Part shown: positions 6,441-63,419 of the stretch, one piece after another | Layout: each line of letters starts with the position of its first letter | Position numbering within the stretch: position 1 is the stretch's first letter | NCBI GenBank assembly: GCA_949358305.1 | Contig: OX442318.1 | Coordinates: forward strand, 13,872,517-13,936,516 | Length of the DNA: 64,000 bases | Source: Strigamia acuminata | Taxonomy: Eukaryota > Arthropoda > Chilopoda > Geophilomorpha > Linotaeniidae | Reading direction: 5' to 3' | Position numbers and translations under genes: made by a program | The notes under the pieces: generated by a model | The model's input: only the letters and a program-made list of their open reading frames with translations | What the model was told of the DNA's origin: nothing | The model's database searches: none

Positions 6441-6707
6441 AACTCATTTCCTGACATGTGTTGAGATTGTAATGGATTCTCTGAGCAGATAGAGTTTAGT
6501 CTTCCACTAGCCAACTAACAAACTGGGTAGTAGTCTATAATAAAATCTTCTAATTTCTAATACTGATTACTTTGATGTTTTAATGACAAACACAATACGA
6601 GATGTAAGTTTCACCAAAAAGGGCTTTCCAACACTGTTTATAAGTACACGGTGAAACAAAAAAAAACCTGACATTTTAGAAAATGTAATTACAGTACTCC
6701 GTAACTA

Positions 6708-28355: not shown

Positions 28356-28490
28356 AAAAGTATCACTTTTGCATTAAAAGTATCACTTTTGCATTAAAAG
28401 TATCACTTTTGCATTAAAAGTATCACTTTTGCATTAAAAGTATCACTTTTGCATTAAAAGTATCACTTTGCATTAAAAGTATCACTTTTA
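28356..28490. repeat. 20-bp minisatellite of small hairpins
   Basis: Seven units of AAAAGTATCACTTTTGCATT (the sixth is one base short, the last partial). Each unit contains AAAAGT-ATC-ACTTTT, a perfect 6-bp stem with a 3-base loop, so the array is a string of identical small hairpins. Confidence 0.9.
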
Positions 28491-34902: not shown

Positions 34903-35075
34903 TGTGGTGTTGTGATGTCGAGCATGATCACCAGGGGGCGATCATGGTCGGCAAGTTTATATAAGCTTGTAACACGTGACCGCAAGGCCACTTTCTCTAG
35001 AGTTGATGAGTAATAAAGATGCATCGTCGTTACTGCTAAAGCTGTGTATTATTTAATGGACATAACGACATTACA
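34903..35075 (+). repeat. 5' LTR of element A
   Basis: Starts TGTGGTGTTGTG and ends GACATTACA. It holds a TATA box (TATATAA at 34958-34964) and a polyadenylation signal AATAAA at 35012-35017, giving a compact U3-R-U5. Confidence 0.95.
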
Positions 35076-35077
35076 TT

Positions 35078-35095
35078 TGGCGACGAGGAATTGTG
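35078..35095 (+). other. Primer binding site, tRNA-Ser type
   Basis: Two bases after the LTR the text reads TGGCGACGAGGA, complementary to the 3' end of animal tRNA-Ser(GCU) (…TCCTCGTCGCCA). The match covers the first 12 bases and fades after that. Confidence 0.75.
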
Positions 35096-35201
35096 GACTA
35101 TTAGTGTGTTTGTGAACATTTTGGGACGGTTTGTGGACGTTTTGGGACGGTTTGTGAACATTTTAAATACTTTGTCGTTTGTTTTTTTGAGTGGAGCCAA
35201 G

Positions 35202-38096: not shown

Positions 38097-38884
38097 CTCC
38101 GCTCTGGCCGGAAGCTAATGGTGAGGTGGAGAGATTTATGAGGACGTTGAACAAGACTGTGAGGGCGGCTAAAGTGGAGGGTAAGCAATGGAAGCGGGAG
38201 TTAGCTGAATTTCTGCTGAATTATCGGGCTACCCCACATTCGACTACGGGAAGGCCGCCGGCGGATCTTTTACTCGGGAGGACGGTTAGGACGCGACTAC
38301 CGACATTTTGCCGAGATGCAGAGGATCTGCAACTACGTGAGAAGGACTTAATGGAGAAGGCCAAAATGAAGGCGTATGCGGATCGACATCGGAATGCCAA
38401 GCCCCATGACTTTAAGATTGGTGACAGAGTGTTGGTGAAACAGGTGAAAGTTAATAAGTTTTCTACTCCATTTGACCCCAGACCTTTGATAGTGTCCGAC
38501 GTAGTGGGGACGCAGGTAACCGCTATGAGAGGACAGCAGGTAGTAGTCCGAAACGCGTCTTGTTTTAAGCGTATTTGGAATGATGAGAAGCAGGAGAGGT
38601 GTGTGTTGGGGGATGGTGCGCGACGAGAGGAGGAGTGTGCTGGTGACGTAAGTTGGGAGGATGACACGGAGATACGTCAGGGAGTGGTGCCGCCGGAGCA
38701 GATGGAGGGACCCGATGATTTGGTGCAGCAGGAGGGGGCAGCCGTGGATGAAGCCGTGGATGAGAACAGGCCGGATGAGATTGTGCCAGATGAGATTGTG
38801 CCAGAAGAGGGACCCAGGCGTTCTGAAAGGATTAAAAACAGACCTGTCTGGCAGAAGGACTATGATATGAACTTTATGCTTTGA
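38021..38884 (+). pseudogene. Integrase C-terminal part of element A, out of frame
   Basis: A second frame begins at about 38021 with DNGPPFTSREF, the second catalytic Asp of a DDE integrase, then NGEVERF with the catalytic Glu. It continues through the typical NYRATPHSTTGRPPADLL block to a C-terminal tail and stops at 38884. It is in a different frame from the gag-pol above. The HHCC zinc domain and the first catalytic Asp are absent from both frames, so several hundred bases have been deleted at about 38015. This copy cannot make a complete integrase. Confidence 0.9.
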
Positions 38885-44446: not shown

Positions 44447-45494
44447 CATGATTTCAGTTCTAATTGCAAAAATAAATACACGTATTACTTTGTTAATTTT
44501 TATATCGTTTTTCTTCAATTCTAACTCGCACTTTTTTACACACATGACAGTGCGTCTTACAATCAAAGCATCTTATAAAATGCACATTTTTTTTTCCATA
44601 TTGTTACTTGGTTCGGGGGATGGCACAAACTCGTGACATTTGTCTTTTATGTTTAAATGACTCAGGTTATTTTATTATGAAAATAGAGTTCTTTTATTCA
44701 AAGTCGGAAATTTGGGATTACATCTCTAAAAACCTTCTTACAATCAATGTCGTCATAAGATCAAAGAAATACGGCAGTAATTATTCAATGCATCCCTATT
44801 TACCACACTAAATGTCAATTCACTTTGCGTGACGATTTCTCGGAACCAATTAATCGCGTAATTCGAAGGGTGCCGGTAACAGAAAACCAAAAATGTTGAG
44901 AGAAAAAAAAATCGATTTATGGGATCAATACTGTGGATCTATAGTGGAACATGGCACGGTCAACAAACAAAAGTAAAAATGTGAAAGAAAATAAAGCTAG
45001 GTATCTCCTTCGGATGGATGCTGCAGGAAAGCCAAATAATTTCAAGATTATTGGATGGTGTGATGGAGATGGAGTTCTGCCTATATGAATGTGAAGTGTC
45101 TGTTTTGATACTTTTGAATTATGAATTTTCACAGTGTAGGTACAAGCTTGTAAATAAAAATATTTTTAGACCTTTGGCATTATAAATATTTTGGCAGAAA
45201 ATCTTCAGAAACATGATGAAATTAAATTTGAAAAAAGAAGTTATTTCAGTGCCTGAATTTTTTATGCTTAAAAACTCCGCTGCGATTTATTGATAACCCT
45301 CAAAAGGCAGCATCAATTTTTTACGCAATGCTTCAAACTTTACTGTTGCCAATTTCCATTTTTGAAAACAACAGTGATGAATACTAACTAAATAAAAGTT
45401 CCCATCTGTTACGAAAATTTTTAAATCATGTTCAAATATCAATAAAAGGATTTTGAGCAAAGCATACACAACCCCTGGAAAATAATTGTCAATT
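44447..45494. other. Non-coding DNA, possible LTR fragment
   Basis: At 44602 ATAT is followed by TGTTACTTGGTTC, the start seen in the ATAT-targeting LTR group. A GGTAACA end occurs at 44881, which would give a 280-bp block, but no ATAT follows. No gene seen. Confidence 0.35.
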
Positions 45495-46490
45495 TGTGGT
45501 GACCCGACTGGGGTGGGGCACGAAGAGTTTCTCTCGTGGCCTACATACGGGTAAAGAAGGGGAGTCGCACGCGCGCCTCCCTTCCCTCAGAGCATTGACA
45601 TCCAGTCAATGGACGGGCGTCTGCCCTGGGGGAGTGGGGGAGATTCGTCTTCTCCACTATTGGGTGGCTTTAGTCACCTGTCACCCCCCGCTTTGTGCAA
45701 AGGAATTCGCCTTGCACTGAGCGGGCAGAACCAACACAAAAATCAACCAAGATACACGTAAAAGCCAAACGTCCTAAAACGATCAAGCCTAAGTACAAAG
45801 ACTTCAGGAGTGACCTAGGACAAGGGACTTTCAACGTGAGTACGATTGATTTGTGTTAACCTCCGCAGAGTAACCTGCGAAACAAGATTACCACACTATT
45901 TTAGCAAGCCAGCTAGAAATAGTAAACCTACTCCAATTTAGCGAGTTGTGCAGACAAACGGTCGCACAAGCCTAAATTGCAGTAACCACGACGAGCGTTC
46001 CCGCCGCTGTGTGTATCGCCGGGAACCACCAAGCGTCCGCCGCTGTGTGATCGCCGGACACCTACAAAAAACCCTAAACCTAGACAACAGACCAGAAGTA
46101 AGACCTTTCAGGCATTCACTCGCGCCCGACCAGCGTGAGCCCGAAGGACCGAACGAGAAACGTGAGACGAGGACGCCATTCATTGCCACGCCGGCCCAAG
46201 ACGACACCACGTTGCCACGCGGACGCCATCTTGGATCCACAGCGACAAAGGACGACCTCGACCAGTTTCCCGCCAACTTCACACCCCTTTCCTTTTACCT
46301 TTTTATTCCCTTACATATTTTATTCCCTTTTAACTGTATATTCCCGTATAATAAATACATTTATTATATTTACCTTTTACATTGTCTTGCCGTGTTACAT
46401 TATTTGGGTAACCGCTTGAGTAAAGCGGTATTGCGAGATCAGAGAGTGACTCATACCACGTATCAGCGACAGACCGAGTTGAGCGCGACA
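45495..46490 (+). repeat. 5' LTR of element B
   Basis: Starts TGTGGTGACCCG and ends GAGCGCGACA. A polyadenylation signal AATAAA is at 46350-46355. The long open frames inside it are present identically in both LTRs, but none resembles a known protein. Confidence 0.97.
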
Positions 46491-46492
46491 CG

Positions 46493-46510
46493 TGGGGGCC
46501 TGTCCGGGAT
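46493..46510 (+). other. Primer binding site, tRNA-Pro type
   Basis: Two bases after the LTR the text is TGGGGGCCTGTCCGGGAT. It matches the complement of the tRNA-Pro 3' end (as in the murine leukaemia virus primer site) at 16 of 18 positions, the two mismatches being adjacent. tRNA-Pro priming is the best fit, but a host tRNA-Pro variant or another tRNA could match better. Confidence 0.7.
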
Positions 46511-46558
46511 CGATTTAAACGACTCGAATAGAACTTGAGATCATTTTTATACCCAAAA

Positions 46559-49500
46559 ATGGCAGACAATATCCGAGTAACGGATTCCGACTCCGACGCA
46601 AACAAGAGAGCCGGTAGCCGTAAAGGCGCCGATTATCATTTGCGATCTGGAGGTCCCTTACCCAAAGCCTCAGCGCACGAAGCGAGGCAAAAAAGGCGCA
46701 AGCCTAAACCCGATCGCAGAAGCGCATCAGAGGCATCGCACCCGTCTCGCGCCGAGACGAGGCAGCGGTTAAACGAGACAGAGCGGGGTGAAGAGCAATC
46801 TCACTCCAAACTGCCGCGTTCTAACCGTGACGGCGAGACGAGCGGAAACGAGGTTTTATCCCGTAACCCATCGCCTCGTCTAACGCACGACACCGAGGTG
46901 GGCAGTCCGAAAGCGGCGTCTCCGATACAAAAGACGGCCTCAAATACGACAGCTAATTCGACACTAAACACGCCAATTACGCAAAGCCGCCCAGCTTCGG
47001 TCAGGTCCGAAGGACACAAGTCCAATGCGTCAAAAACTGAGCGTGTTCCGAGCCAGCCTTACAGCGTCTCGGCCACATTGGTTGACACGATGCAGTTGGC
47101 ACAGGCAGAAGGTGTACGATACACTCTGCCAACGGGAAAAATAACTGTGTACGAAACATTACAAATCGTACGTGCAGCTTTAAGAGCGCACAGGTTATCC
47201 CCAGAAATCACCGTTGTTGAAGACGCATACGCTCAACAAATGGTAGACTCCGCTCAATTCGAAGCGGATGCCGAGAATGAGGCCCGACAAGCCATCCGCG
47301 AGAGAAAGCGGAAGCTGGCGGAAAGAGAAGCGCGAGCTCTCGAGTACGGCAAATCCCAGCGCGTTCCGACTACTCCAGAAGAAGTCGAAATAGTTGATCG
47401 AGCCTTACATGCACATCGTTATGCATTCCGTTCTCAACAAGAAGCTGAACAAGCTTTCATGACTAGGCTGCAACGAGACAAACCAAAATCCGTTCGCAAG
47501 CCAGAAGTTAGCTCGTCCGAATTGTCCGACGAGAGCGTAGAAGGCGACCCGAAGCGCACGCCGAAGGTCAGCCCCAAACCCGAGCGAAAAAAGGAAGTGC
47601 CAGTCACTCCACGCAAACGGGAAGTCTCGACCGAACAACGCGTTCGACCTCGCATGATGGCGTTAGACGATAACACTAACAACGCTATCAACCGATTAAT
47701 AAATGCGAACAACGCGCGTCGTAACGAAGAACAGACTCACACGAGCCGACAACGCGACGACCCGCGGGGTAACGACTGGCAACAGCCGGTACCCATCCTC
47801 AAAGACGACGGACCTTCGAGAAAACCTTCCGAAGACCGCACATCGTCACGAGAGGAACGTCAACGCGAAAGAGGACAGCAACAGTATCACTACGGAAACA
47901 GTGATTCGTCGTCGGATGAACTGGAGTCGAATGCACCCAGTCATCACGATTCGGAGAGAGGTTCCGGAGAAAGACGAAGGGAAAGAGAACGCGATGAACG
48001 CAGGGAAAGGGAACGTGACGACCGTCGTAGGGGCCGGAAAGAGTCAAACTCTTCACGGCGCAACCCGCCACGCCGCTCACCGTCTCCCGACCCCAGCTCC
48101 GACCCCTCGTCCAACGACGACAGACGAAATGATAAGTCAAGTAATCGCCGGAAGAGATCCAACTCTCCGCGCGATAGAGAGAAACGACGTCGATCGGAAA
48201 ATAGCGACCACCGACGGGAGGAGTTTCAGGACCTTCCCCGACAAAGCGCGTTTACCGATTCGACGGGTCGGCAGTATACGATGGGAGAGCTTGGAAGAGC
48301 CCTGCTTGGCTCGTTAAAAGCCGAAGGAATCGATCTGAGCAAACGAAATGATCGTAATCGTAACACTGGTGACCGCGTAAAGAAAAAATACGCTGTCTCC
48401 CGACGTGACACCATGAGTGTTACCGGGAATATTAGGTGGCAATTTTATATTCAGAACCGTTTCGACGGGTCATGGAAAGCGGGAGATCGCTTCCTTGACG
48501 AAGTAATTCGGATTAAGACTGCCACTAAAGCCACCGTAGGAGACATGCTCACCCACGGTATTGTCGAGCTAATGACAGGCTCGGCACGTGAGTGGTACCA
48601 AGGATTGAAAGGCGTCAATTGGGACGACTTTTTAATGAGATTCGACCTGCGCTACGGCGAGACACCCGAAGAGGTGAGCCGAAAGATGCGAGGTCTTCGC
48701 CAGATGCCTGGTGAAACCATAATGGATTACGACATTCGCGCCAGATTGTTGTTCGAAAAGGCCCCGATGGAATTTCATGCCACGGGATTCAACCTTTTCT
48801 TTCTCGGCGGTTTGTCGGAATACTCGCAACGGGTGCTACTTGAAGAAAGGGCACCGACAGGAGGCAGCTACGAAGAAATGAGCGCCTTCCTGTTCGAGAA
48901 CACGATAGATATCGAGAAGAGATATTATTCCGCTTTACCAGAAGCGGAGAAAGCAGCAACCGCTAAACGTCTCAAGTTGAGTGCGGAAAGATATGGGGCG
49001 ACAGACAAAATCATGCGCCCTACTGAATATCTTAGCGGTATAATGGAGCTGGCAGAAGCTAGCGTTGGTTTACAAATAAAAAATAAACTGACATCCACGC
49101 TGCCTTCCAACCCATTGGCCGCCCCTAAAAAGGCACCGACAGCGTCAGCCATGCAAGCGACACTGGAGGAGGTCAAGGAGGGGGAGGAAGCCGAACAAAA
49201 TGTCGGAAAATCAGACGAAAAAGAAGAAAAAGACGATTATTCGACGGACGAAGAAATACGAAGCTATCGCGATACCTTATCAACGGGTTGCGATGAGGAA
49301 GGACCGCTAGTACATCTCATCCATCGAGATAGAGCGGTAGAAGAATTTCGCGCCAGGTTAAAACCAAATGCCGGCCGAATTCCGAAGTATTTTCGAAAAA
49401 ATTACACGCCACCGTCGAAAGTAGACCCTGAAAAAAAGAAATCGATTGAAGCCCCAAGAGACAAATCAAATATTCGTTGTTTTAAGTGTAACCAACCGGG

Positions 49501-49639
49501 TCACTATTCCAATGAGTGCCCAAGAACAGCGAAAGAAGACGCTAAGTTTGACGCGATAATGAAGCAGATGGCAGAGATTAAACTCGCCATGGCAAAAAAC
49601 GAGTCAAAAAACGAGTCAGCGCAGGCGGCGAAGAAATAA
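46559..49639 (+). CDS. gag: Gag polyprotein of element B
   Basis: The first in-frame ATG (46559, context AAAAATGGC) starts a frame of 1026 codons, long for a Ty3/Gypsy Gag. Residues 1-180 are low-complexity and charged. A helical stretch is at about 190-270. An arginine/serine/glutamate-rich region at about 450-555 looks like the RS domains of splicing factors (RERERDERRERERDD, then RRSPSPDPSSDPSS). The retrotransposon Gag core (capsid-like) is at about 620-800, with GSAREWYQGL and MDYDIRARLLF. One zinc knuckle, C-x2-C-x4-H-x4-C, begins at Cys974. The end (MAKNESKNES) overlaps the pol frame and contains the frameshift sites. Confidence 0.95.
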   Translation: MADNIRVTDSDSDANKRAGSRKGADYHLRSGGPLPKASAHEARQKRRKPKPDRRSASEASHPSRAETRQRLNETERGEEQSHSKLPRSNRDGETSGNEVLSRNPSPRLTHDTEVGSPKAASPIQKTASNTTANSTLNTPITQSRPASVRSEGHKSNASKTERVPSQPYSVSATLVDTMQLAQAEGVRYTLPTGKITVYETLQIVRAALRAHRLSPEITVVEDAYAQQMVDSAQFEADAENEARQAIRERKRKLAEREARALEYGKSQRVPTTPEEVEIVDRALHAHRYAFRSQQEAEQAFMTRLQRDKPKSVRKPEVSSSELSDESVEGDPKRTPKVSPKPERKKEVPVTPRKREVSTEQRVRPRMMALDDNTNNAINRLINANNARRNEEQTHTSRQRDDPRGNDWQQPVPILKDDGPSRKPSEDRTSSREERQRERGQQQYHYGNSDSSSDELESNAPSHHDSERGSGERRRERERDERRERERDDRRRGRKESNSSRRNPPRRSPSPDPSSDPSSNDDRRNDKSSNRRKRSNSPRDREKRRRSENSDHRREEFQDLPRQSAFTDSTGRQYTMGELGRALLGSLKAEGIDLSKRNDRNRNTGDRVKKKYAVSRRDTMSVTGNIRWQFYIQNRFDGSWKAGDRFLDEVIRIKTATKATVGDMLTHGIVELMTGSAREWYQGLKGVNWDDFLMRFDLRYGETPEEVSRKMRGLRQMPGETIMDYDIRARLLFEKAPMEFHATGFNLFFLGGLSEYSQRVLLEERAPTGGSYEEMSAFLFENTIDIEKRYYSALPEAEKAATAKRLKLSAERYGATDKIMRPTEYLSGIMELAEASVGLQIKNKLTSTLPSNPLAAPKKAPTASAMQATLEEVKEGEEAEQNVGKSDEKEEKDDYSTDEEIRSYRDTLSTGCDEEGPLVHLIHRDRAVEEFRARLKPNAGRIPKYFRKNYTPPSKVDPEKKKSIEAPRDKSNIRCFKCNQPGHYSNECPRTAKEDAKFDAIMKQMAEIKLAMAKNESKNESAQAAKK
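49582..49639 (+). promoter_or_regulatory. gag-pol overlap with two -1 frameshift heptamers
   Basis: The pol frame is open from 49582 and gag stops at 49637-49639, a 58-base overlap in the -1 phase. Within it A-AAA-AAC occurs at 49594-49600 and again at 49606-49612. In both, the gag codons are AAA AAC preceded by A, the exact phase for X-XXY-YYZ slippage, and the sites lie 12 bases apart in a duplicated GAGTC context. A -1 slip at either enters pol. A downstream stimulatory structure was not analysed. Confidence 0.85.
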
Positions 49640-49662
49640 CTTCTCGACCGTCTGCGCCATTC

Positions 49663-52600
49663 ATGAAGAAGAAGGGGTTTAACAAAGGGTTCGATAAACC
49701 GCCACCAGTCAAAGAAATGGGTAGTGACATAGCTAACGCCCAGATCCAAGACAGGGCCAACAACGCTTTGCAGGTAATTACCGCAAACGCTGAGGCTGAG
49801 GCGGAAGAACCAAACCTACTGCTTGAAGAATTACCTCAAGTAGTCGAAGACACAGAAGAATTTCGTGTTTTCATGTGCAACGTGGCGGTCGAATATACCA
49901 GCCGCCTATGTATGCTGCCCATGACAATAGAACGCGAAAAAATTATGGGACTGCTAGACTCGGGAGCAGATCGCTCGTTCGTTTCCGAAGACATAGTAGC
50001 ATCATTGGGTCTCACCGATAAGATAAAAGGCGTTAATAAAAATGTACGTCTAAAAACCGCCAACGGAATGGCGCGTCCAAAAGGAGTTATATTATTGACC
50101 ATGGAGTGGCTCGGAGGGGTAGAACAGCACCCTTTCCTGGTCCTGCCCACGTGCGACAGAATTTTTCTGTTGGGCTTAGACCTCATGGCGTCAATGGAAA
50201 TACAACCAAATCCAATAACGAAATCTTGGAATTATATCAGAAATGATAGAGAAAGACCCGCAATTGTCGTGCCACCAGCTCTTATCAAAGAAGCGGCCGA
50301 CAAGACACAGTGGGAGAAAGGCCTAAAGAAATTCGTTCAAGACTACAATTTTAAAGCATTCGTAGCAGAATTGCAACGGGACAATGTAGTGGAAACGCTT
50401 GTCGCCGACGCCGCTTTAGAATTAAACGAAGCGGCAGCCCTACGAAGGGTCCTACTTAAATATGAGGGGATCCTGTCGAAAAAACCGGGCCGAACGAATA
50501 GGGCTATTCACGAGATTAAATTGACGGATAATAAACCTATACGAGTTGCGTATAAGGGAATGAATCCGCAAAAACGTGAAATAGTGCAAAAAATGTGCCA
50601 AGAAATGCTAGACAGTGGCATTGTCTCCGAGGCCCAGGGAGAATACGCGACGCGAGTTGTGCTCGTGATGCGCCCGGGCTCGGACCCACGCCTATGCATT
50701 GATTACCGCCCATTAAACGCGGTGACAGAGATAGATCCCATACAGATGCCGTCTATCGAATCCATTTTGAGAGAGCTTAGCCCCTTTTCTTGGGTTACGA
50801 CGATGGATCTGTCGAAGGGATACTGGCAAGTTGAGATGAGGCCAGAGGATAAGCTAAAAACAGCATTTTACTCGCCAATTGGACGGTTGATGTTCAACGT
50901 CATGCCGTTTGGTTTAGTGAATGCTCCCAGTACCTTTCAGAGACTAATCGAAAGCGTATTGGGTGATATCCTGCATCAGTTCGTGTGGGCATACCTAGAT
51001 GACATAGTTATTGCCTCTAAAACATTCGAAGAGCACATTGAGCACATCGACCAAGTGCTCACCCGGCTGGCGAAAGCTGGGTTACACGTTCATCCGGGCA
51101 AGAGCAAGTTCTGCCGAAAGGAGCTTGCCTTCCTGGGTTATCGCATTGGAGTCAACGGTTTAGCTATTGGCCCCGAAAAAATCGATGCGATTAATCGTTT
51201 CCCACCACCCGAGGACGTTAAAGGTGTCCAACGGTTTATGGGAATGATAAACTTCTTCGGCAGGTTGCTACCGGGTCTAGCTGAAGTGGCAGCCCCAGTT
51301 ACCGACCTCCTGAAGAATGAAAACGAATTTGTATGGTCAAATGAGTGCAACATCGCATTTAATGCGATAAAGAGGATGCTGACGGAAGTCGGCGTAATGC
51401 CTCTACCCGACTTAAACCGGCCGTTCATATTACATACGGACGCCAGCAGAGTTGGGTTAGGAGCGGCGTTGCTCCAAACACACGTGCGCGACGGAGTCGA
51501 ACAAGACCTGCCGTGCATGTTTATAAGTCGCAAACTCCAAGGCGCTGAAAAAAATTACAACGCCACAGAGTTGGAGTGTTTGGCAGTTGTGTGGGCTATA
51601 AGGAAATTCAGAGATTATCTCGAATATACCAAATTTGTAGTCCACACAGATCATCAAGCGTTACAATGGCTGATGAAATTAAAGGAGCCAGCCGGTCGAC
51701 TAGCCAGATGGCAGTTAGAACTGATGGCATGCGACTTGACCATTCAATACAAGCCCGGCAAATATAACGTCGTGGCTGACGCTCTATCAAGGGCACCAGT
51801 GTCAGATCCTATCGACGCTGACGATGATGGCGAGGATGATTCCCGCATCATTTACTGCCCGACGAGTTGTCACCGTTGGGATTTAAGGAAAATAAATGAA
51901 ATTCCCACCGCGTCTCCAGCAGATGTAAAATTCTGTGGATTCTGGACGCGGTTATACCAACCAGCTGCTGACAATTACCCAAATGCAAAGAAGGAATTTA
52001 AGCTAGAGCGGAGAATAAATGACCCGCTTCTAAGCGCCTTCCACACTCATGTCGGCAAGCAAATGCGAAGCAATCCCCCGACAAGGGAGGAAATAATTGT
52101 GCAACAAAAATTAGACAAGAAATGTCAGGATAGAGCTAGATTCGTACTGACAGGAAAATATCCGCCCAACTTAACCAGAAGGCAGAAGCGTCGTTATGCA
52201 CACGAATCCATAGATTACCTATTGGATGACGGCCTTTTGGTGAAACATCACCCAAATCACCAAGATGACTTGAGTGAATCGGACACCGCAGTAAAGGTAG
52301 TAATACCTGCTTCCTTAATCGGTCGCGTGCTGTGGTTGTTACACGGGCACCCGCTTGCGAGCCATGCGGGAGTAAGCAGAACACTCTATCGTGCTACACA
52401 GCTTTTTCACTGGACAGGGATGAAAAAAGATATTGCTCTTTTTGTCCACCAATGTCAGCGATGTCAAGCGTGCAAGCCGAGGAGTAAATCACCATTCGAA
52501 ACTATTTTCTTAGGGCCTTACGCGCCTTTTGATTGTTTAAGTGTCGATGTGATGGGCCCAAAACCCGTTACGGGAAATAAAAATGCGTACATTATCGTTA

Positions 52601-53733
52601 TAATGGACGTGGCGACTCGTTGGCCCGAGTTGTACGCCGTCGCTAGACCTTCAGCAGAAAAAATCGTTGAATGTATCTACGACGTAGCGTTACGTTACGG
52701 ATTTCCACGTAAAATGATATCCGACAACGGACCCCAATTTATCTCGAAAATTTGGGGTAAGTTTTGTGAGAAATTCGGGATTGTGGCGTCACATACTTCG
52801 ACCTACAATCCCAGAACAAATCCCGTTGAGCGACTCAACAGGGACATTAAATATGCACTAAGTATATTCACTGACATCCACAATAGGTGGGATGAATACT
52901 TGAGGGAGATCGCGTTCAGCATACGAACAACAGTCTCGAGGACGAGAGATTTTTCTCCGGCCTACCTCAACTTCGCCCGGGAGCTACGAGTGCCTTGGGA
53001 CCCACGAGTGGCAGAGTCAGTAAATGTGGTGGACCCCGAGAAACCACATGAGTACGTGTATAAATTGGAGCAAACCATCTCCAACACGTACAAGCACATG
53101 ATGGCGCACATTTTTAACATGCGCGACCGCATTTTACAAGATAAAAGCGGTGGAAAATTCGTGAATTTCGAGATTAATGATTTAGTGTGGAAGGACACAC
53201 ACATCCTCTCAAATGCAGCGAGAGGAATCACCGCCAGCTTGGCCGACAAAAGAGACGGTCCGTATGTGATCATCGGCAAGCATGGCGGTAACGCGTATAA
53301 ATTACGTAAGCTCGAGGACAATACCGAGCACAAATCGATCCAGGTACGAGAGTTAACTCCGTACATTCCGGAATTCCCGCAAGAAATGTGGGCCAAGGGC
53401 CAAGTCAAGTCAAAAACTGACGGCCAAATCGTCGATATGTTCGCTGGCGAGTCGGAAAAAGCACCGCCAAGTGACAACGAGGAGTATTTCGACGCCCCTT
53501 CACCACCGGTAAACGAGATAGTTGAATCCGTTCCGGATCCAATTTTGGTCGGGGGGGAAACAGGAGAAACTCCTGAAACAAACACAAAAAACACGGATAA
53601 AAAAGAAAACAATAATGAGGAGGTACAGACACAAAAAACAACAAAAAATATCGTACCTGTCTCGACTCATCACCTGCGGCCCCGTGGAAGTAATCCGTTT
53701 ATAAAAGACGGAAAGGTCGTAGGAAAGGAGTAG
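49663..53733 (+). CDS. pol: Pol polyprotein of element B
   Basis: 1356 codons from the ATG at 49663; the frame is open back to 49582, so the product is probably made as a Gag-Pol fusion by -1 frameshift. Protease: LLDSGADRS, Asp99. Reverse transcriptase: LCIDYRPLN, MPFGLVNAPSTFQR, and YLDD at 444-447. RNase H: HTDAS with Asp593, ELECLAVVWA and HTDHQAL. Integrase: zinc domain His896, His901, Cys931, Cys934; catalytic Asp962, Asp1021 and Glu1056, the last two 35 apart as usual. The C-terminal tail (about 1260-1356) is acidic then basic; no chromodomain seen. All key residues are present and the frame is unbroken, so this gene looks functional. Confidence 0.97.
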   Translation: MKKKGFNKGFDKPPPVKEMGSDIANAQIQDRANNALQVITANAEAEAEEPNLLLEELPQVVEDTEEFRVFMCNVAVEYTSRLCMLPMTIEREKIMGLLDSGADRSFVSEDIVASLGLTDKIKGVNKNVRLKTANGMARPKGVILLTMEWLGGVEQHPFLVLPTCDRIFLLGLDLMASMEIQPNPITKSWNYIRNDRERPAIVVPPALIKEAADKTQWEKGLKKFVQDYNFKAFVAELQRDNVVETLVADAALELNEAAALRRVLLKYEGILSKKPGRTNRAIHEIKLTDNKPIRVAYKGMNPQKREIVQKMCQEMLDSGIVSEAQGEYATRVVLVMRPGSDPRLCIDYRPLNAVTEIDPIQMPSIESILRELSPFSWVTTMDLSKGYWQVEMRPEDKLKTAFYSPIGRLMFNVMPFGLVNAPSTFQRLIESVLGDILHQFVWAYLDDIVIASKTFEEHIEHIDQVLTRLAKAGLHVHPGKSKFCRKELAFLGYRIGVNGLAIGPEKIDAINRFPPPEDVKGVQRFMGMINFFGRLLPGLAEVAAPVTDLLKNENEFVWSNECNIAFNAIKRMLTEVGVMPLPDLNRPFILHTDASRVGLGAALLQTHVRDGVEQDLPCMFISRKLQGAEKNYNATELECLAVVWAIRKFRDYLEYTKFVVHTDHQALQWLMKLKEPAGRLARWQLELMACDLTIQYKPGKYNVVADALSRAPVSDPIDADDDGEDDSRIIYCPTSCHRWDLRKINEIPTASPADVKFCGFWTRLYQPAADNYPNAKKEFKLERRINDPLLSAFHTHVGKQMRSNPPTREEIIVQQKLDKKCQDRARFVLTGKYPPNLTRRQKRRYAHESIDYLLDDGLLVKHHPNHQDDLSESDTAVKVVIPASLIGRVLWLLHGHPLASHAGVSRTLYRATQLFHWTGMKKDIALFVHQCQRCQACKPRSKSPFETIFLGPYAPFDCLSVDVMGPKPVTGNKNAYIIVIMDVATRWPELYAVARPSAEKIVECIYDVALRYGFPRKMISDNGPQFISKIWGKFCEKFGIVASHTSTYNPRTNPVERLNRDIKYALSIFTDIHNRWDEYLREIAFSIRTTVSRTRDFSPAYLNFARELRVPWDPRVAESVNVVDPEKPHEYVYKLEQTISNTYKHMMAHIFNMRDRILQDKSGGKFVNFEINDLVWKDTHILSNAARGITASLADKRDGPYVIIGKHGGNAYKLRKLEDNTEHKSIQVRELTPYIPEFPQEMWAKGQVKSKTDGQIVDMFAGESEKAPPSDNEEYFDAPSPPVNEIVESVPDPILVGGETGETPETNTKNTDKKENNNEEVQTQKTTKNIVPVSTHHLRPRGSNPFIKDGKVVGKE

Positions 53734-53749
53734 AAAACGTTACGAGTCG

Positions 53750-53941
53750 ATGGCGACGCTGAAAAACAAAAAAATTGACCGATCGACAGCGCTAGCCATC
53801 AAAATCCGAGACTCTGAAAATTTCGCTAAGTCCAACAAAGCGGATATCGGTCGAATTCGCGTCACGAGATGGCGTGGAAACGCGGGACCCGTAGCAAAAT
53901 TATCGGCACGGGTCGGATACCGCGTGCAAAAGACCCCGTAG
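53750..53941 (+). CDS. Small basic ORF after pol, unknown
   Basis: An ATG frame of 63 codons begins 16 bases after the pol stop. The product would be strongly basic with few acidic residues (for example RIRVTRWRGN). No family recognised. Its place after pol and its charge recall small regulatory proteins of complex retroviruses, but that is position only. No splice signal was identified for it. Confidence 0.3.
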   Translation: MATLKNKKIDRSTALAIKIRDSENFAKSNKADIGRIRVTRWRGNAGPVAKLSARVGYRVQKTP

Positions 53942-54213
53942 CAGCGATCGCGCACGGGCGTAGAAACAAAGGAGCCCCGTAGCGTAACATGCGCACGGGC
54001 TGTTGCGCACAGTCATAAGCACCTGGTTCTGGAGTAAAATTACCCAGAACCCACCACGATTGCCTCGTTTTCACCCGGACTTCCGCTAAAATCAGCTGAT
54101 CGTCGTCCGCACGTGATACACAGCGAGTGCATTTTTAACCAAGTTTTTGATCCATTTTACGAGAAGTTTTCAAGTTTTTTAATCGTGGTCTGACTGAACG
54201 CGCAATCCTCACG

Positions 54214-54372
54214 ATGGATGAGGAAGGAGGGGACGAGGAAATGCTTGAAATACAGCATCATGACGAGAATTGGGACCCGGACATAAACGTAGTTCCACCC
54301 GATCAGGTAGTAGTCGGCATCGCCGCACGAGATTTAGCTCCGTGCGGTCGAATTAAAGATACACTTGACTAA
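54214..54372 (+). CDS. Small acidic ORF, possible leader exon for ORF3
   Basis: An ATG frame of 52 codons starting MDEEGGDEEMLE. After 31 codons there is a candidate splice donor (ATCAG then GTAGTAG, 54306/54307). Splicing from there to the acceptor at 55107 would remove 801 bases, a multiple of three, and the donor falls between codons, so the first 31 codons would join ORF3 in frame. The donor is only moderate and other leaders are possible. Confidence 0.35.
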   Translation: MDEEGGDEEMLEIQHHDENWDPDINVVPPDQVVVGIAARDLAPCGRIKDTLD

Positions 54373-54380
54373 TACTTGAC

Positions 54381-54605
54381 ATGAACGCTCTGCGTTCGAA
54401 ATCGTGTATAATTATTATACTAATATCCACGATCGCGAGAGCGATTGTATTTTCTCCTATTATTTGTCTTCAAGGACGCGATAGCAGACAAACTGTCGCC
54501 TCGCTCCTTGAAGATGACTCACGACAATTGACACGAACGAGACAAAGGAAACGAGCTTTCTTTTTATATTCCAGAAATGGGAATAATTTATTGGATGGAT
54601 TTTGA
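54381..54605 (+). CDS. Short ORF with signal-like N-terminus and RQRKR site
   Basis: An ATG frame of 74 codons beginning 8 bases after the acidic ORF. Residues 8-30 are hydrophobic, like a signal peptide or anchor, and a dibasic run (RTRQRKR) lies at about 50-57. In a second frame a hydrophobic stretch follows at 54619-54690. A hydrophobic leader, a furin-like site and another hydrophobic segment between pol and the 3' end suggest a decayed envelope-type gene, but there is no sequence match I can name and much of the region may be intron. Confidence 0.25.
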   Translation: MNALRSKSCIIIILISTIARAIVFSPIICLQGRDSRQTVASLLEDDSRQLTRTRQRKRAFFLYSRNGNNLLDGF

Positions 54606-55079
54606 AAGAATTTATAGAACGTTGTTTCTATTTTTATTTGCTATTTTATTTGCGAATTTTTTCCCGATGACACTAATTTATTATAGATTCGTTTTTTAAC
54701 TCGACTTTAACTCCGAATTTTTGGAGTTATTATTAGACAAATTTATTTCTTTACAAGTTAATTCACGACAAGAACATTTGTTTACATGTTCTAAAATTGT
54801 TATTGGAGATTTTCACGAACGATTTCGCGAATTTATTGGTTTAAATACAAATTTACAGTTTAATTTTAAATTAAGCAATCCGAAGAAAAATTTCCGGATT
54901 AATACGCTCGATTCCGTCTCGTGGTTATCATTGGACGTGAACCAGATGTGCCAAGAAGACTCTTTTCTTCCTGACAAGGACGAATCAATGAACAGGAATA
55001 GGACTCGACGAGCGGTCGCACGTTTCAGCGACGTTCCTCGAGCCCACCCCCTATTTATCTCCGTGTTATTGGCGATTTC

Positions 55080-55107
55080 ATTAATTATTTTGTTTCCATC
55101 ATTGCAG
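55080..55107 (+). promoter_or_regulatory. 3' splice site before ORF3
   Basis: ATTATTTTGTTTCCATCATTGCAG ends at 55107 and is followed directly by ATGG. Pyrimidine-rich tract, CAG, and an ATG as the first exonic codon make this a strong acceptor for a spliced subgenomic message. A CATTAAT branch-like word lies just upstream. Confidence 0.6.
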
Positions 55108-56277
55108 ATGGAGCTCCGAGACACATGGGGAGCGCTCAGCCCCGCATGCATAGTGCGAGCGGGCATATATCGAGGCGTACTGCCCGATTTTCTGCGCCGC
55201 TGCTTTGGCGAAGATGCGAAGCCATACCGCCTGCGCGTATTATTTTCGCGCGCCCTCGCCAAGCGTTGGGTTAACGATTGTACACTCCTGGACGCGTTCC
55301 CGGAGTCGGTGCGAAACGTCGTCGCTGCAGAGCTCGCTCGCATCGATGACCCGAAGTCACCAATCTTCCACCCGGCCCTGTCGAGCCAATACTCCGGCAG
55401 GCCGGCGGAGGAGCATGTGTTGTTCGCGTGGCAAGCGGCCGAGACCGAGGAGGCCCGCGAAGAAGTGTATCAACACTACCGCCAGCAGCTAATCGACACT
55501 GCGCCGGCGGTTGCAGAGCGGATTTTGCAAGACGACGGAATGAGCACCGCCGATATACATCTGTGGTGCGAGCAGATTCGGCAGGGAGAAGTTACGCCAC
55601 AGTGGCGACCGAGAATGGGGATTCTCACGTCACAAGCTGAAATGTGGCAACTCCACTATTTGGGAATTCTCGGCCCCAAATATAATTTCCCAAGGAAGCG
55701 CAAGCGCTCCAAGGGAACCGGGGGCAGCGAATCGCGCTCCCCGGGACGGTCGAAGAAACAGTGCGTCGAACAGCACTCGACCGTCAACGATGGAGCGGGA
55801 ACGTCAGCGCAGCCACCGCGCGACCCCGCGAATTACACCAGACCAAGGGTGTTCGTCAACCGTCAGATGAAAGACGGTAAAGAGACTCGAGAAGTCTGGA
55901 TTTCGGGTGACGAAGAGCGAGTCTCTCGTCCCCGTGTCGGCAGACATCCGCTAACTCATCGTGAGCAGCGGAAACGAGACCGCAAAGAGCGGTATTTCGC
56001 TCGCTGCGAGGCGCGAGGAATTCCCCTTCCCGAACACGCTCTCAAAGCAATCGAAGCGAAGGAAGCGAGAGAGGCACGATCGAAGTCGAGTGGCCGATCT
56101 TCCGGGGAGCGTCGCGTCCTAGCGCCAGACACGCGGGACCTTCGCGAGATCATCACCCAGATGAAACGCAAGAAATTGTCTCGTTTCGACCCCGCGATGC
56201 AGTTCGCTCGCAAGATGGGCGTCGTCGAGCATGGTACCGTGATTCCACACGAAGTGGCACGGTGGTTAAGCGAATAT
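55108..56277 (+). pseudogene. ORF3, N-terminal part (interrupted)
   Basis: 390 codons from the ATG at 55108 up to the nested insertion; in the present sequence the frame reads 22 codons into the insert and stops at 56343. The frame is open further upstream but without an early ATG, and that part overlaps the splice tract. The first ~190 residues look globular and helical, with no motif I recognise. A PRKRKRSK cluster at about residue 195 could be a nuclear localisation signal. The rest is basic and disordered (THREQRKRDRKERYFARCEA), then helical. It is not an envelope: no signal peptide, cysteine pattern or membrane anchor. It resumes at 57649. Function unknown. Confidence 0.65.
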
Positions 56278-57644
56278 TGTTACGTGGATTCCGGGCCTAA
56301 TCAGCGAAAACAGGTCTCTAATCACTTTTCCAGTTATAAATAACACTATAACTCTTTAGCACACAGAACACTTTTCACTTTCTGAAAAATAATTCAATAA
56401 TTAAACACTTCAATTTTCACGGTCATAATTACAAAATATCAAAAAAAACAATTCATTTTCACGGTCATAATTACTAAATTTCATCAAAACTATTCAAGGA
56501 AAAATTTCTTATTAATAACACTTTACAAAAATGCTCTGGAAAGAAAACAAATTCATTAATAAATATAAATAATATATTCTCTATTATCATTCAATTTTAT
56601 CCTAACATCACAATTAAATTCTTCATTACTATACAATTTCATTAAATTTTATCAAAATTCAATCAATAATACTATATCAATTCAATTCAAAGTCAAATAT
56701 CACAGTAAATAACACTCAAATGCAAATTTATCCAATTTAAACACTCAAAACTTCTATTCTATTCTATTTTATTTTTTTAGACTTTATCAATTTTCAATCT
56801 AATTGACCTATTTATTCACTAGCAATGACTCACTCTCACTTTCCTATCAATTTCACAAATGAATCACTCATATTCAAATTAGTTTGGGATTTCTCAAAAT
56901 TTTATATGATTTTCAAAGCTATTTTAAGCCAAATTTGCCAATTTTATGTGATTTTAATTCTAATTTCACTCATTTTACTTTAAATTTTACAATTTTAATG
57001 ATTTTAGCTCTAATTTTCGGGGTTTTTATTCTACTTTTGGTCCCGGGGAAAGAACCGCATCTCCACCATTTGTTACGTGGATTCCGGGCCTAATCAGGTT
57101 TCCACGCAACTATGTTTAATTGGGGTTTAGTGAGTGTGAAAGGAAAGAATGAGATTCATTTATGCTTTAAATTCAATTCAGATTTATTTGACCGGACAAA
57201 CAAAGTTTGTTCGATCCCTTATAAATTCAGATACATTTATTCTCAAACAGGTCAGAATGTTATTTTGGATAAATTGTCACTTCTTACATTTGTCAAATGT
57301 ACAACCTTTATTAATTGGGTTATGAACTACTGTGTGATAACTTAACTGCAATGTAATTAAATTGGTTTTATAGTCAGTCAGCCGCTCTCAGTATCGAGGC
57401 GACATCAGACTCTCTAGTTCTGAAAAGCAAAAGTGATTAGAGACCTGTCTTAGTGCGGGCTCCTTATTTATAGCAAATCTGCCATAAACCCCATAATTGA
57501 ATTGATCGGTCCATCACATGGCGATGACGGAGTCCAAGCCGTCAGCGCCATCTGTGGCCGAAATTTAGCAACATTTAACCTAATAATGATTCGAATTACG
57601 TGCTACGAATCGCGCATCAATTGGCACGGTTCGTACACGTGACA
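56278..57644 (+). mobile_element. Nested LTR-type insertion, ATAT target duplication
   Basis: 1367 AT-rich bases starting TGTTACGTGGATTCC and ending CACGTGACA, with ATAT directly before (56274-56277) and after (57645-57648). The first 27 bases recur at 57071-57097 (one more base matches upstream, 28 in all), so 57071-57644 (574 bp) looks like a whole LTR. The left copy departs from it after that short match, implying a deletion or rearrangement in the left LTR and internal region. There is no reading frame inside. The start resembles those at 4659, 24981 and 44602. Removing the insert and one ATAT (1371 bases, 457 codons) joins the two parts of ORF3 without a frame change. Confidence 0.8.
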
Positions 57645-57648
57645 ATAT

Positions 57649-59346
57649 GTCAATTCGCGACCGCGTGTAGAAAACGCGCCTACGGCCGTCGTTCCACCGA
57701 CGAGTACTGTAAGCCAGCTCCCGGCACTCCAAGTCACGCCGACTGGAGTGCAAGCGACGCTGCCACCGCCAACACAACAGTCTTTGACGTTGCTGTTGCC
57801 GACGCAGTCATCAACGTCGCAACCGTTGCCAGCACAGCAGTCCCTGACGCTGCCGCCGCCGACACAGCCGCTGCCGCCGCCGACGCAGCCCCCGCCGCCG
57901 CCGCCGCCGATGCCGGGTTCGAGCACTACGCCGAACTTGGCCGTCGACGACTCGGTGATGTTGCCCGTTCACCAGAGCATTGCGCGGGAATGCCATAACG
58001 CCCGATTCGGAGAATATTACCCGAGCAAGGCAAGACACGACCGCACCGCGATGTGGTATGAACAGCGTGACGAAAACGCACGGCTGGCTCGAGAAGCAGC
58101 CAATCCATCGATCGAAGAGCTCTTGGCCTTCGCATTTGTGATGGAGGACCCGAGGGCCGCCGCCGCTGCTCTGCAGGGCGCCGACGTCACTCAGCGCCAT
58201 TTCATCGAGTGGGGGATTTCGATGATGCGGCACCACTCGCGCGCGTTCGCTGCAGATCCTGATCGCAGCAACCCTGTAAATCGGCGCAGTCTACAGCTGG
58301 CTTTGACGAAAATCATGGTCCAGTTATTGACCCCCTCGCTCTTTGGGGTCGGACGACAGGCGATGGCCTGTTGGTCCGTAGTAGACAGAGAGGGTGTGCA
58401 GATACCTCGCGCACTCGTTGGAGAATGGAGCGCCATTCTCCCCAACCCGGCGATGACTCGCTTCGAGCTGACCCGGGACGTGGTGAACCCCGAATGGGAG
58501 GGGTATAAGTTGCGGAGCATGGCCTTCCGCCACGCCGTTACCACGTGGGAGCCAACACCGTCAGCGCAGTCACACGCAATGATGGTCACGAGTGAAGAGC
58601 CGATGGAGAGCGACGCCGCCTCTTCGACTGCTTCACGTGGAGCCCCAACTCCACCTCCGCCGCCGCCACCGATGCCACCAGCGGCGACGCCACAGACACC
58701 CGTCCTATCAAATGCGGCGGGTAAGCCTAGACGCCTGCTATGCCGGACGCCGCCAACGATGTCCGCCGCTCGCCAGAGCCTGACGCCTCCCGCAGCCCAA
58801 GAAGCGCAGGAAGAGACTGTCCAGCAGGCAGTGGTTTCGAAGAGCGCCAAGCCAGCGAAAGCGGCGAAGCCTCCGACAAACTACTATGAGAAGTTGTGTG
58901 ACGAGTTCTCTCAGCTGTCGATGACGACGGCGACGCGCAAATTCATCCTCGCGCAGAGAGACAAGGGGAAATCGGTATTCGTTTGGCTACACAACCAGGT
59001 GCGCCAGACCACCGATTTGATCCTCCATCAGCGTTTGCTGAGGGCCCACCGTGCGCCTCGAACGGCCGCGGAGGCGAACGCGATCCGGCACACCAATTCC
59101 GGGTTTTCGGCGTTCATTCCGCGGGTTTGGCTGCATGAGAGGAGACGTGCCCCGTACGAGCCAGCCGGCGGCCACGCATTGTGCTTCATTTCCGAGCACG
59201 AGGACCCCCGCGACCAGTCTTCAGCCTTGGTTGGAGATCTGGTTTTGCCGCCCGGCGTTGTGCCGCCCGGCGCTGAGCCGCCCGTCCCTGGAGTGAGTTT
59301 CGCCCAGGCGATGGATCCAGCGTCGGGTCCCAGCAAGAAGGATTGA
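57649..59346 (+). pseudogene. ORF3, C-terminal part (interrupted)
   Basis: The frame is open from just after the ATAT duplication to TGA at 59344-59346, 565 codons. It has no early ATG (first in-frame ATG at 57910), which fits its being the second half of the ORF that begins at 55108. After about 25 residues comes a glutamine/proline-rich stretch with runs of Pro (to about 57910), a helical globular region (about 57940-58560), a second Pro-rich linker (about 58640-58690), and a C-terminal region with YYEKLCDEFSQL and SGFSAFIPRVWL. No known domain was recognised. It ends about 40 bases before the 3' LTR, so it was the 3'-terminal gene of the element. Confidence 0.65.
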
Positions 59347-59373
59347 TCGCTCCGAACACCGGCGGTCAGAGCT

Positions 59374-59383
59374 GGGAGGGGGA
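59374..59383 (+). other. Polypurine tract of element B
   Basis: GGGAGGGGGA, two bases before the 3' LTR. Confidence 0.8.
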
Positions 59384-59385
59384 CG

Positions 59386-60381
59386 TGTGGTGACCCGACT
59401 GGGGTGGGGCACGAAGAGTTTCTCTCGTGGCCTACATACGGGTAAAGAAGGGGAGTCGCACGCGCGCCTCCCTTCCCTCAGAGCATTGACATCCAGTCAA
59501 TGGACGGGCGTCTGCCCTGGGGGAGTGGGGGAGATTCGTCTTCTCCACTATTGGGTGGCTTTAGTCACCTGTCACCCCCCGCTTTGTGCAAAGGAATTCG
59601 CCTTGCACTGAGCGGGCAGAACCAACACAAAAATCAACCAAGATACACGTAAAAGCCAAACGTCCTAAAACGATCAAGCCTAAGTACAAAGACTTCAGGA
59701 GTGACCTAGGACAAGGGACTTTCAACGTGAGTACGATTGATTTGTGTTAACCTCCGCAGAGTAACCTGCGAAACAAGATTACCACACTATTTTAGCAAGC
59801 CAGCTAGAAATAGTAAACCTACTCCAATTTAGCGAGTTGTGCAGACAAACGGTCGCACAAGCCTAAATTGCAGTAACCACGACGAGCGTTCCCGCCGCTG
59901 TGTGTATCGCCGGGAACCACCAAGCGTCCGCCGCTGTGTGATCGCCGGACACCTACAAAAAACCCTAAACCTAGACAACAGACCAGAAGTAAGACCTTTC
60001 AGGCATTCACTCGCGCCCGACCAGCGTGAGCCCGAAGGACCGAACGAGAAACGTGAGACGAGGACGCCATTCATTGCCACGCCGGCCCAAGACGACACCA
60101 CGTTGCCACGCGGACGCCATCTTGGATCCACAGCGACAAAGGACGACCTCGACCAGTTTCCCGCCAACTTCACACCCCTTTCCTTTTACCTTTTTATTCC
60201 CTTACATATTTTATTCCCTTTTAACTGTATATTCCCGTATAATAAATACATTTATTATATTTACCTTTTACATTGTCTTGCCGTGTTACATTATTTGGGT
60301 AACCGCTTGAGTAAAGCGGTATTGCGAGATCAGAGAGTGACTCATACCACGTATCAGCGACAGACCGAGTTGAGCGCGACA
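59386..60381 (+). repeat. 3' LTR of element B
   Basis: Same 996 bases as 45495-46490; no difference was found in the stretches compared by eye. AATT follows directly. Confidence 0.97.
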
Positions 60382-60385
60382 AATT

Positions 60386-62095: not shown

Positions 62096-62706
62096 TATGA
62101 CATCCTGAATGTCAATAATTTAATCCCAGACACCAAATTCCATCAGTTACACATGAAGGAGAAAACTAAATTGGCTGTGCCTATTTAAAGTGCTCCGGTT
62201 TAGATCTGTCTTTTTTATCGAGATGACTATTGAGTTGTGGTGGAAATATTGTGTGTTTGGTTGTTTGTCGCCATATTGTATAGTTTGTGAATATTTACAT
62301 TACACACTTTCCGGATATGTGTAATGAATGTGCTGCTATTTAATGTCTCGATGTCGCGTTCAATCGATCTCGATTTTTATTAATGCTGGTTCTGTACCGC
62401 GGTTGAACGTTTCCATTTAGCAGCATGCGCTGATAACATCGTCTGCTCAAAAGAGCGAGTCCTGTATTGTTATTATTGCTTAGTTATCGATTATGAATGT
62501 CATTGCTTTTATTTTATAATGTAAAGGACAAATCATTGAAATCCAACAATGATTTATCCTATTTTTCCGAGTGCAGTTGTTAGCCTCGAAGCGTGTACAC
62601 TTTTATGTGATATTAAACATGGCGCACGCATGTCGGTGTCGCGCACCTGTTTAGACACTCGTCAACTCCTTTCTAACCGATGTTTTGGCCAGGAAATCGC
62701 TTTATA
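62096..62706 (+). other. Region holding the unseen 5' LTR of a Copia element
   Basis: The primer site at 62707 requires an LTR ending just before it. The LTR start could not be placed because the 3' LTR is outside the window. A start near 62230 would be reasonable. No gene seen. Confidence 0.4.
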
Positions 62707-63419
62707 TGGTAGCAGAGGGTGGTTCTCGACGGCCTGACCAGTTTGTAAAGGATTTCCGACCTTTTTGGACGCGAGACGAAGCCAAGACGTCGCCCGACTT
62801 CGCCGCAAACGCGAACCGACCGACGCAGACGGATTTTCTTCGCCAAATCGATTGGAAACGATCGGCAACGTGTGCGGACATTACTACGGACATTTTAGTG
62901 TGTAAGCAGCTTTATTTCGAAATTTTTCTGTGCGAAATAAGCACTTTTTCCGACGTCGTTGTGAAATTCTCCTGCGGCGGCCATTTTGGATTCGGCCGTG
63001 AAGCGAATCGCAGCCCAGACGTGCATCTGAACCGATACACGCCAACACGACGTTATTTTGCCGAGGCAATCAGTATTGCCAGCGAGACGACGCCCATTCA
63101 CGTCGACACGACGGAGTTTCGACGCAAAACGACCGATATTTGTCGTAGGATCGTCGAGGACGAAGATTTGTTCTGTGGCGACCATTTTGATCGTTTTTCA
63201 TCGCCATCGACGGTGAATATTCGTTTTGGAGCTGTGTTTACGTGTAAGTCCACGTACACAGCCATATTTAGCACGAAGAGCCGTGATTTACACCCGACGT
63301 GGAATTACGAAGGCGCGGACGTGCGCAACGACGATTTCAAGAGGAAACCCTGGTTTTGCACGCAGGGTGCACCAGTTGAGAGGGTTTCTCCTCACATTAG
63401 CACCCCGGCGTGCGTGTGA
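62706..63419 (+). CDS. Long ORF in Copia leader, unknown
   Basis: An ATG frame of 237 codons whose start codon overlaps the first bases of the primer site. A 714-base frame without a stop is unlikely by chance, but other frames here are also rather open because stop-rich AT words are few. The product (FVKDFRPFWTRDEAK..., later HFDRFSSPSTVNIRFG) resembles nothing I know. It may be a real leader protein or a by-product of base composition. Confidence 0.25.
   Translation: MVAEGGSRRPDQFVKDFRPFWTRDEAKTSPDFAANANRPTQTDFLRQIDWKRSATCADITTDILVCKQLYFEIFLCEISTFSDVVVKFSCGGHFGFGREANRSPDVHLNRYTPTRRYFAEAISIASETTPIHVDTTEFRRKTTDICRRIVEDEDLFCGDHFDRFSSPSTVNIRFGAVFTCKSTYTAIFSTKSRDLHPTWNYEGADVRNDDFKRKPWFCTQGAPVERVSPHISTPACV
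62707..62724 (+). other. Primer binding site, initiator tRNA-Met
   Basis: TGGTAGCAGAGGGTGGTT matches the complement of the 3' end of animal initiator tRNA-Met (…CCATCCTCTGCTACCA) with one mismatch. Confidence 0.8.

Follow-up and report, generated by a model that had tools for sequence, protein, structure and literature searches.

The window analyzed here, 64,000 bp of the genome of the centipede Strigamia acuminata (GenBank assembly GCA_949358305.1, contig OX442318.1, positions 13,872,517 to 13,936,516 of the forward strand), contains one Ty3/Gypsy element at 45495-60381 in which a third gene, ORF3, lies between pol and the 3' long terminal repeat (LTR). Comparison with other copies in the genome indicates that ORF3 is under purifying selection, and its main exon encodes some 850-960 residues of a soluble protein, in which basic and Pro-rich linkers connect three conserved domains; judged by this conservation, the elements evidently need the protein. 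A tentative reading, to which we give a probability of roughly 0.4, is that ORF3 encodes a spliced nuclear regulator of the element's own RNA, comparable to CERV of the nematode element Cer1 and to Rev of HIV-1. The original prediction, made from the window alone, had recognized the element and its third gene and had overlooked the nested insertion that breaks ORF3 in this copy, the apparent splicing of the gene, and its presence in related lineages.

Conservation and distribution of ORF3

The intact form of the gene is represented by copy L012 of the same family (family A), in which ORF3 is a single frame of 1,091 residues from stop to stop, and of 955 residues from an ATG that follows a 3' splice-site sequence. 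The extra region of the window element had been described as mostly one long GC-rich frame. It is GC-rich (0.57-0.64 in the ORF3 exon, against about 0.30-0.39 in the flanks), and the single frame is correct for the family but not for the window, which has two stop-to-stop frames, 54700-56343 (547 residues) and 57643-59346 (567 residues), because ORF3 is broken by a nested repeat (Table 1). The window frame comprises 390 ORF3 residues followed by 21 that the insert encodes before it stops; this copy would make only a truncated ORF3, and whole protein would come from other copies.

The original prediction had allowed that ORF3 might be absent from all other copies of the family; instead it recurs in the copies scored, with its frame mostly open. 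Stop codons are lacking in 47 of 48 full-length matches (98-100% identity; best 48 of 2,808 candidates), in 147 of 150 matches to a C-terminal-domain query (93-100% identity in one group and 82-84% in another; best 150 of 1,151 candidates), and in all 150 matches to a C-terminal-domain query from the related lineage B (59-100% identity; best 150 of 1,135 candidates). The ratio of non-synonymous to synonymous substitution rates (dN/dS) is 0.121-0.262 among six subfamily copies (15 pairs). The L012-L039 comparison gives 0.13 for residues 1-200, 0.07 for residues 491-690 and 0.05 for residues 801-925, and higher values for the two Pro-rich linkers (0.38 and 0.32). Ten near-identical copies (reference L012) contain 37 distinct codon variants, counted as 26.5 synonymous and 11.5 non-synonymous, and no stops. 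One copy, L037 (G000:C5:12052870-12057500), has a mosaic ORF3 whose first part is like L038 and whose remainder is like L012, which suggests recombination between subfamilies, and the dN/dS pairs are therefore not independent. Synonymous sites are saturated in comparisons with lineage B, and hence no ratio is given. We also note that in L041 (G000:C1:59184400-59191100) a frame at 354-6476 fuses pol and ORF3 into 2,041 residues across a short shared stretch, IKDGKE, and that there are further unusually long frames of 1,377, 1,309 and 1,296 residues.

Homologues of ORF3 are found in lineage B (L035; two blocks, with BLASTP expectation values (E) of 2e-35 and 1e-34) and in lineage E/F (L042 and L043), which comprises two subfamilies (ORF3 90% alike, integrase 99%). 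Integrase identities are 57.5% for A-B, 57.4% for A-F and 71.5% for B-F, and the corresponding ORF3 identities are 27%, 30% and 48%; by these comparisons ORF3 travels with pol and evolves faster than integrase. An alignment of five sequences (A twice, B, E and F) has 140 invariant columns, which are concentrated in residues 1-192 (45 columns), 561-690 (24) and 801-925 (44) and are sparse in residues 193-395 (11), 396-490 (9), 491-560 (5), 691-800 (2) and 926-955 (none).

A different relationship is seen with two sister families, C (L034) and D (L022), whose integrases are 36-40% identical to those of A, B, E and F and 66% identical to each other. Both have a sense frame after pol, of 505 residues from its ATG in C (L034 3816-5375) and of at least 480 residues in D (L022 8559-9998), the latter counted from a stop to the edge of the piece retrieved, in the one copy seen. 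These two ORF3s are related (35% identity over 158 residues) around a zinc-ribbon-like CPFC...CxNC...CPxC block, and we refer to them as type II; no homology to the type I ORF3 of A, B and E/F is detectable (hhalign probability 0.07%). The C-type frame is free of stops at 76 of 85 places (best 85 of 733 candidates), and the L034 type numbers 85 near-identical copies or more. It starts directly after CAG/ATG, and no upstream exon was found for it.

Beyond these lineages, searches returned no relative of type I ORF3. In Pfam there is no match to the A protein at E up to 10, a single sub-threshold match to the first piece of the window ORF3 (E 0.17), and nothing above the cut-off for B, E and F, nor are there matches to the rotifer-type enzyme families (GDSL, DEDDy); in the PDB there is no match below E 0.9. 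A database of 5.8 billion proteins gave none among 8,000 scored candidates, either with a single ORF3 sequence (E up to 0.01) or with a six-sequence alignment (E up to 0.1), in a search that requires shared five-residue words and in which repeat masking may hide ORF3 proteins. In the same database 2,859 of 8,000 candidates match pol with E no higher than 1e-10, named arthropod proteins included (best match 29% identical over 85%), and the database is therefore able to see such elements. Phage records and viral contigs gave nothing for ORF3. A duplicate of Gag was considered and rejected, there being no similarity to the element's own Gag (best E 4.5). The known host or envelope domain that the original prediction had named as a possible outcome thus did not appear in the Pfam, PDB or protein-database searches. 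Its suggestion of a new accessory class is upheld as far as detectable homologues go, and is qualified by the non-envelope third genes already known from other elements (PMC7264820, PMC5408684), one of which, CERV of Cer1, has an established function (PMC10309623).

A predicted intron and a conserved block after pol

All of the A, B and E/F pieces examined have a small acidic frame upstream of the ORF3 main exon, which reads MDEEGG...NWDPDINVVPPDQ in A, MRRNWK...GNEK in B and MRNDWK...NWDEPNEPDAQPD in E/F. The candidate donors are CAG/GTAGTA (A), AAG/GTAAAA (B) and GAC/GTAAGT (E/F), the acceptors end in GCAG, ACAG or CCAG (A), CTCAG (B) and TTTAG (E/F), and the intron phase is 0 throughout. 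In neither B nor E/F does the main exon open with a methionine, and the E/F acceptor includes a TAG that is in frame. Where A subfamilies differ by insertions or deletions in exon 1, the lengths are divisible by three; the stretch between the exons varies in length, and each of the seven pieces compared has stops there when read in the exon 1 frame. We infer that ORF3 is probably spliced, a prediction well supported by comparison of these lineages. A short hydrophobic frame with RQRKR in the L012 intron has the look of a small membrane protein and was rejected, as the frame is not kept in other subfamilies.

Between pol and exon 1 there is a block in which a hairpin-like motif occurs three times. 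Across six A copies, two 60-column windows of the block (53865-53984) have 0.95 and 0.85 invariant columns, compared with 0.33-0.82 in the closest flanking windows and 0.90 in one within the end of pol. Recombination may explain part of this conservation, because L012 and L038 are identical at the end of pol yet have a synonymous divergence (dS) of 1.5 in ORF3. A small frame over the block, MAWKRG..., was rejected as coding; a one-base deletion shifts it in L039, and the block is therefore probably non-coding. On folding, 99% of cells in the block alignment are paired, the same as in shuffles. The block may be an RNA structure, a DNA site or the mark of a mere recent exchange.

Structure of the element and its surroundings

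Coordinates of the element and its parts are collected in Table 1. Its two LTRs are letter-for-letter identical, as originally described, with TG...CA ends and an AATT duplication on either side, and its gag and pol are intact as had been claimed; these flanking structures and the gag-pol order both place it with the Ty3/Gypsy LTR retrotransposons. The pol frame is -1 relative to gag, and a -1 slippery site is present. Matches to the LTR across the genome all round to 100% identity (best 40 of 721 candidates), from which the family is very young or strongly homogenized, possibly by gene conversion.

Table 1. Features of the Ty3/Gypsy element, in window coordinates.
Feature	Coordinates	Strand	Basis
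Target-site duplication AATT, left copy	45491..45494	none	sequence check
5' LTR, 996 bp, TGTGGTGA...GCGCGACA	45495..46490	+	LTR matching
Candidate primer-binding site TGGGGGCCTGTCCGGGAT	46493..46510	+	read from sequence only
gag, from first ATG to frame end; long basic N-terminal part, Retrotrans_gag, one CCHC knuckle	46559..49639	+	open reading frame and domain search
pol; protease, reverse transcriptase, RNase H and integrase, in order	49582..53733	+	open reading frame and domain search
Two AAAAAAC heptamers (49594, 49606), register fitting a -1 frameshift from gag to pol	49594..49612	+	
Conserved, probably non-coding block; three CCCGTAGC...GCACGGG motifs, hairpin-like	53865..53999	+	
Predicted ORF3 exon 1, 31 codons, acidic, end CAG/GTAGTA	54214..54306	+	sequence comparison
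Predicted intron, phase 0, end ...cattgcag	54307..55107	+	position conserved in B, E/F
First portion of the ORF3 main exon (390 codons), with the N-terminal domain and the basic linker	55108..56277	+	
Nested LTR-like repeat, TG...CA, 1,367 bp, TGTTACGTGG...CACGTGACA	56278..57644	+	
Remainder of the ORF3 main exon including the stop, with Pro-rich linkers and the middle and C-terminal domains	57649..59346	+	
Purine-rich tract preceding the 3' LTR	59369..59385	+	by eye
3' LTR, same sequence as 5' LTR	59386..60381	+	
Target-site duplication AATT, right copy	60382..60385	none	

The nested repeat is flanked by a duplicated ATAT (56274-56277 and 57645-57648) and is missing at the insertion site in all 15 other loci retrieved across it, two of which (L020 and L021) have other inserts in ORF3, read by eye as Copia-like. 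When the best 40 LTR matches are paired by position they give 18 neighboring same-strand pairs and four singles, with a spacing of exactly 12,520 bp in nine pairs, of 12,521, 12,527 and 13,891 bp (the window) once each, and of greater length in six. The excess of 1,371 bp in the window is accounted for by the 1,367 bp repeat together with the 4 bp ATAT duplication. The usual element of the family is about 13.5 kb, and the description of the window element as giant was overstated, its length being inflated by the nested repeat. The repeat itself looks like a solo LTR, and its relatives in the genome number at least 75 matching stretches (best 40 of 381 candidates scored). Roughly the first 25 bases of the repeat occur again inside it near 57074, and its relatives are often without the first 44-137 bases.

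Among the other features of the window, we note a Gypsy-type element of a different clade at 35040-38884, with a pol about 28% identical to that of the present element and a frame interrupted near 38000-38096. A 254-residue frame at 62655-63416 differs little from the leader region of L020's Copia-like insert, so that a Copia-like element probably starts near the window end. Two tandem arrays lie outside the element, at 13211-13445 (31 bp unit, 7.6 copies) and at 28356-28489 (20 bp unit, 6.8 copies). Gene content of the genome marks the host as an arthropod: the cuticle-type chitin-binding family is matched by all 54 candidates scored, many of them arranged in arrays, and in none of 14 control genomes. 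The insect odorant-receptor family has one match among 26 scored candidates.

Possible roles of ORF3

A plausible scenario is that ORF3 would be translated from a spliced subgenomic RNA and would enter the nucleus by way of its basic stretches RKRKR and KRKK, which resemble nuclear localization signals (NLS). There it would act on the unspliced genomic RNA of the element, helping it to be exported or to avoid being retained in the nucleus, in the manner of CERV and Rev, with the motif block between pol and exon 1 as a candidate binding site. The need for such a factor would arise because the genomic RNA contains a working intron that must be retained.

The closest parallel is with CERV, described as a spliced, nuclear, non-envelope product of the Caenorhabditis elegans Ty3/Gypsy element Cer1, encoded in the env position and required for export of unspliced RNA; it has 517 residues, five exons of which the first three are in the gag frame, an essential cysteine loop, and three structured domains with flexible linkers (PMC10309623). 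On that account ORF3 resembles CERV in its sense orientation between pol and the 3' LTR, its non-envelope character and its lack of homologues outside its group, and also in a predicted spliced message, a candidate NLS, several domains with linkers, and fast evolution (PMC10309623). It differs in the size of its main exon (856-955 residues), in its one predicted intron, in having exon 1 after pol, and in lacking a conserved cysteine motif; the two are likened by description, not by sequence. With HIV-1 Rev, as treated in the same source, the likeness is by role only, namely a proposed nuclear protein that would serve unspliced genomic RNA through a structured RNA site, and ORF3 is far larger (PMC10309623).

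Several observations weigh against this reading. No RNA-binding domain is recognized in ORF3 by the Pfam searches with A, B, E and F, and the cysteine loop essential to CERV is missing from type I, in which none of the 140 invariant columns is a cysteine and B has only two cysteines in all; type II does have a cysteine block. The first exons of CERV are shared with gag and those of ORF3 are not (PMC10309623). Splicing and nuclear location are themselves predictions from sequence, and since the family A main exon begins with its own ATG, splicing is not forced in A. Hairpin folding of the block is modest (z -1.64, with nine of 200 shuffles at least as stable), compensatory changes on both sides are found at none of 32 pairs, and the pieces retrieved for B, C and D lack the paired motif, D having one half of it. 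Single-sequence structure prediction gives a mostly helical N-terminal domain at a mean predicted local distance difference test score (pLDDT) of 52, which is poor.

The second-ranked explanation, itself somewhat unlikely, is that ORF3 is a nuclear anti-silencing or transcription factor that binds the DNA or chromatin of the element, perhaps at the three inverted motifs, or that blocks silencing. Tat and the plant VANC proteins are models for such a role. The NLS-like stretches and basic linker would suit it, repeated inverted motifs could serve as a DNA site and not only as an RNA structure, and the faster divergence of ORF3 than of integrase (27% as against 57% identity for A-B) is expected under conflict with the host. 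However, no DNA-binding or chromatin domain is recognized, and this role alone leaves the retention of the intron unexplained. It is improbable that ORF3 is instead a structural or packaging partner of capsid, or a tether of the integration complex to chromatin; a large soluble multi-domain protein with Pro-rich linkers could serve in this way, but the absence of similarity to Gag and of any Pfam match speaks against it.

Capture of a host gene by the ancestor of the clade, and its maintenance for a host-like function, would account for the intron and for a GC content that differs from the flanks. We consider it distinctly improbable, as no homologue was seen when 8,000 candidates were scored from a database in which pol retrieves named arthropod proteins, and as ORF3 is common to lineages with integrases only 57% alike, so that any capture must be old; a diverged host copy could hide, since the genome searches score the best candidates only and annotation often masks repeats. 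Poorest of all are the prospects of a diverged envelope or other membrane-fusion protein, to which the envelope position of ORF3 and its apparently spliced message would otherwise point. Over 19 residues, hydropathy peaks at 1.39 in A and 1.49 in B, with no membrane span, there is no furin-type motif and one N-glycosylation motif, the basic and Pro-rich linkers are long, and no envelope family is matched; an envelope is thus rejected on hydropathy, cleavage motif and family searches, in agreement with the original view that the third gene is not envelope-like.

A broader form of the preferred reading, that of a spliced nuclear regulator, is that these elements constitute an undescribed arthropod Ty3/Gypsy clade with regulation like that of complex retroviruses. 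In this clade a spliced nuclear ORF3 would recognize the hairpin array after pol and license the unspliced RNA, independently of Rev and CERV, and the non-homologous zinc-ribbon ORF3 would do the same job in the sister families. We regard this wider proposal as unlikely.

Non-envelope open reading frames after pol are known from plants, rotifers and nematodes (PMC7264820, PMC5408684, PMC10309623), and the present family is a large variant among them for which the searches gave no sequence relatives; no described equivalent of ORF3 was found in the open-licence literature. The LTR retrotransposons of bdelloid rotifers are described as also having non-envelope ORF3s after pol, typically with spliced messages and of types that differ between related lineages, but those of known type are GDSL esterases, DEDDy exonucleases, and coiled-coil or membrane proteins, whereas the ORF3 described here belongs to no Pfam family (PMC5408684). 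The sORF1 and sORF2 genes of the Drosophila MDG1 group are likewise accessory genes of envelope-less arthropod Gypsy-type elements, with low dN/dS and a subnuclear sORF1 product; they differ in lying upstream of gag, in their length (about 110 and 70 residues), in being unspliced, and in that sORF2 is a membrane protein (PMC11952523). Plant elements with additional open reading frames, including Retand, share the long region between pol and the 3' LTR and conserved extra frames of no assigned function, but the Retand frames are antisense and ORF3 here is sense and apparently spliced (PMC7264820, PMC11963269).

The handling of intron-containing genomic RNA is understood in few retroelements, those named in the CERV study being HIV-1 with Rev, viruses with RNA elements that bind export factors, and Cer1 with CERV (PMC10309623). 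The many near-identical and diverged ORF3 copies of the Strigamia genome, together with the unrelated type II, provide a comparative set for asking whether such regulators originate repeatedly, and they caution against taking every third gene at the env position for an envelope gene.

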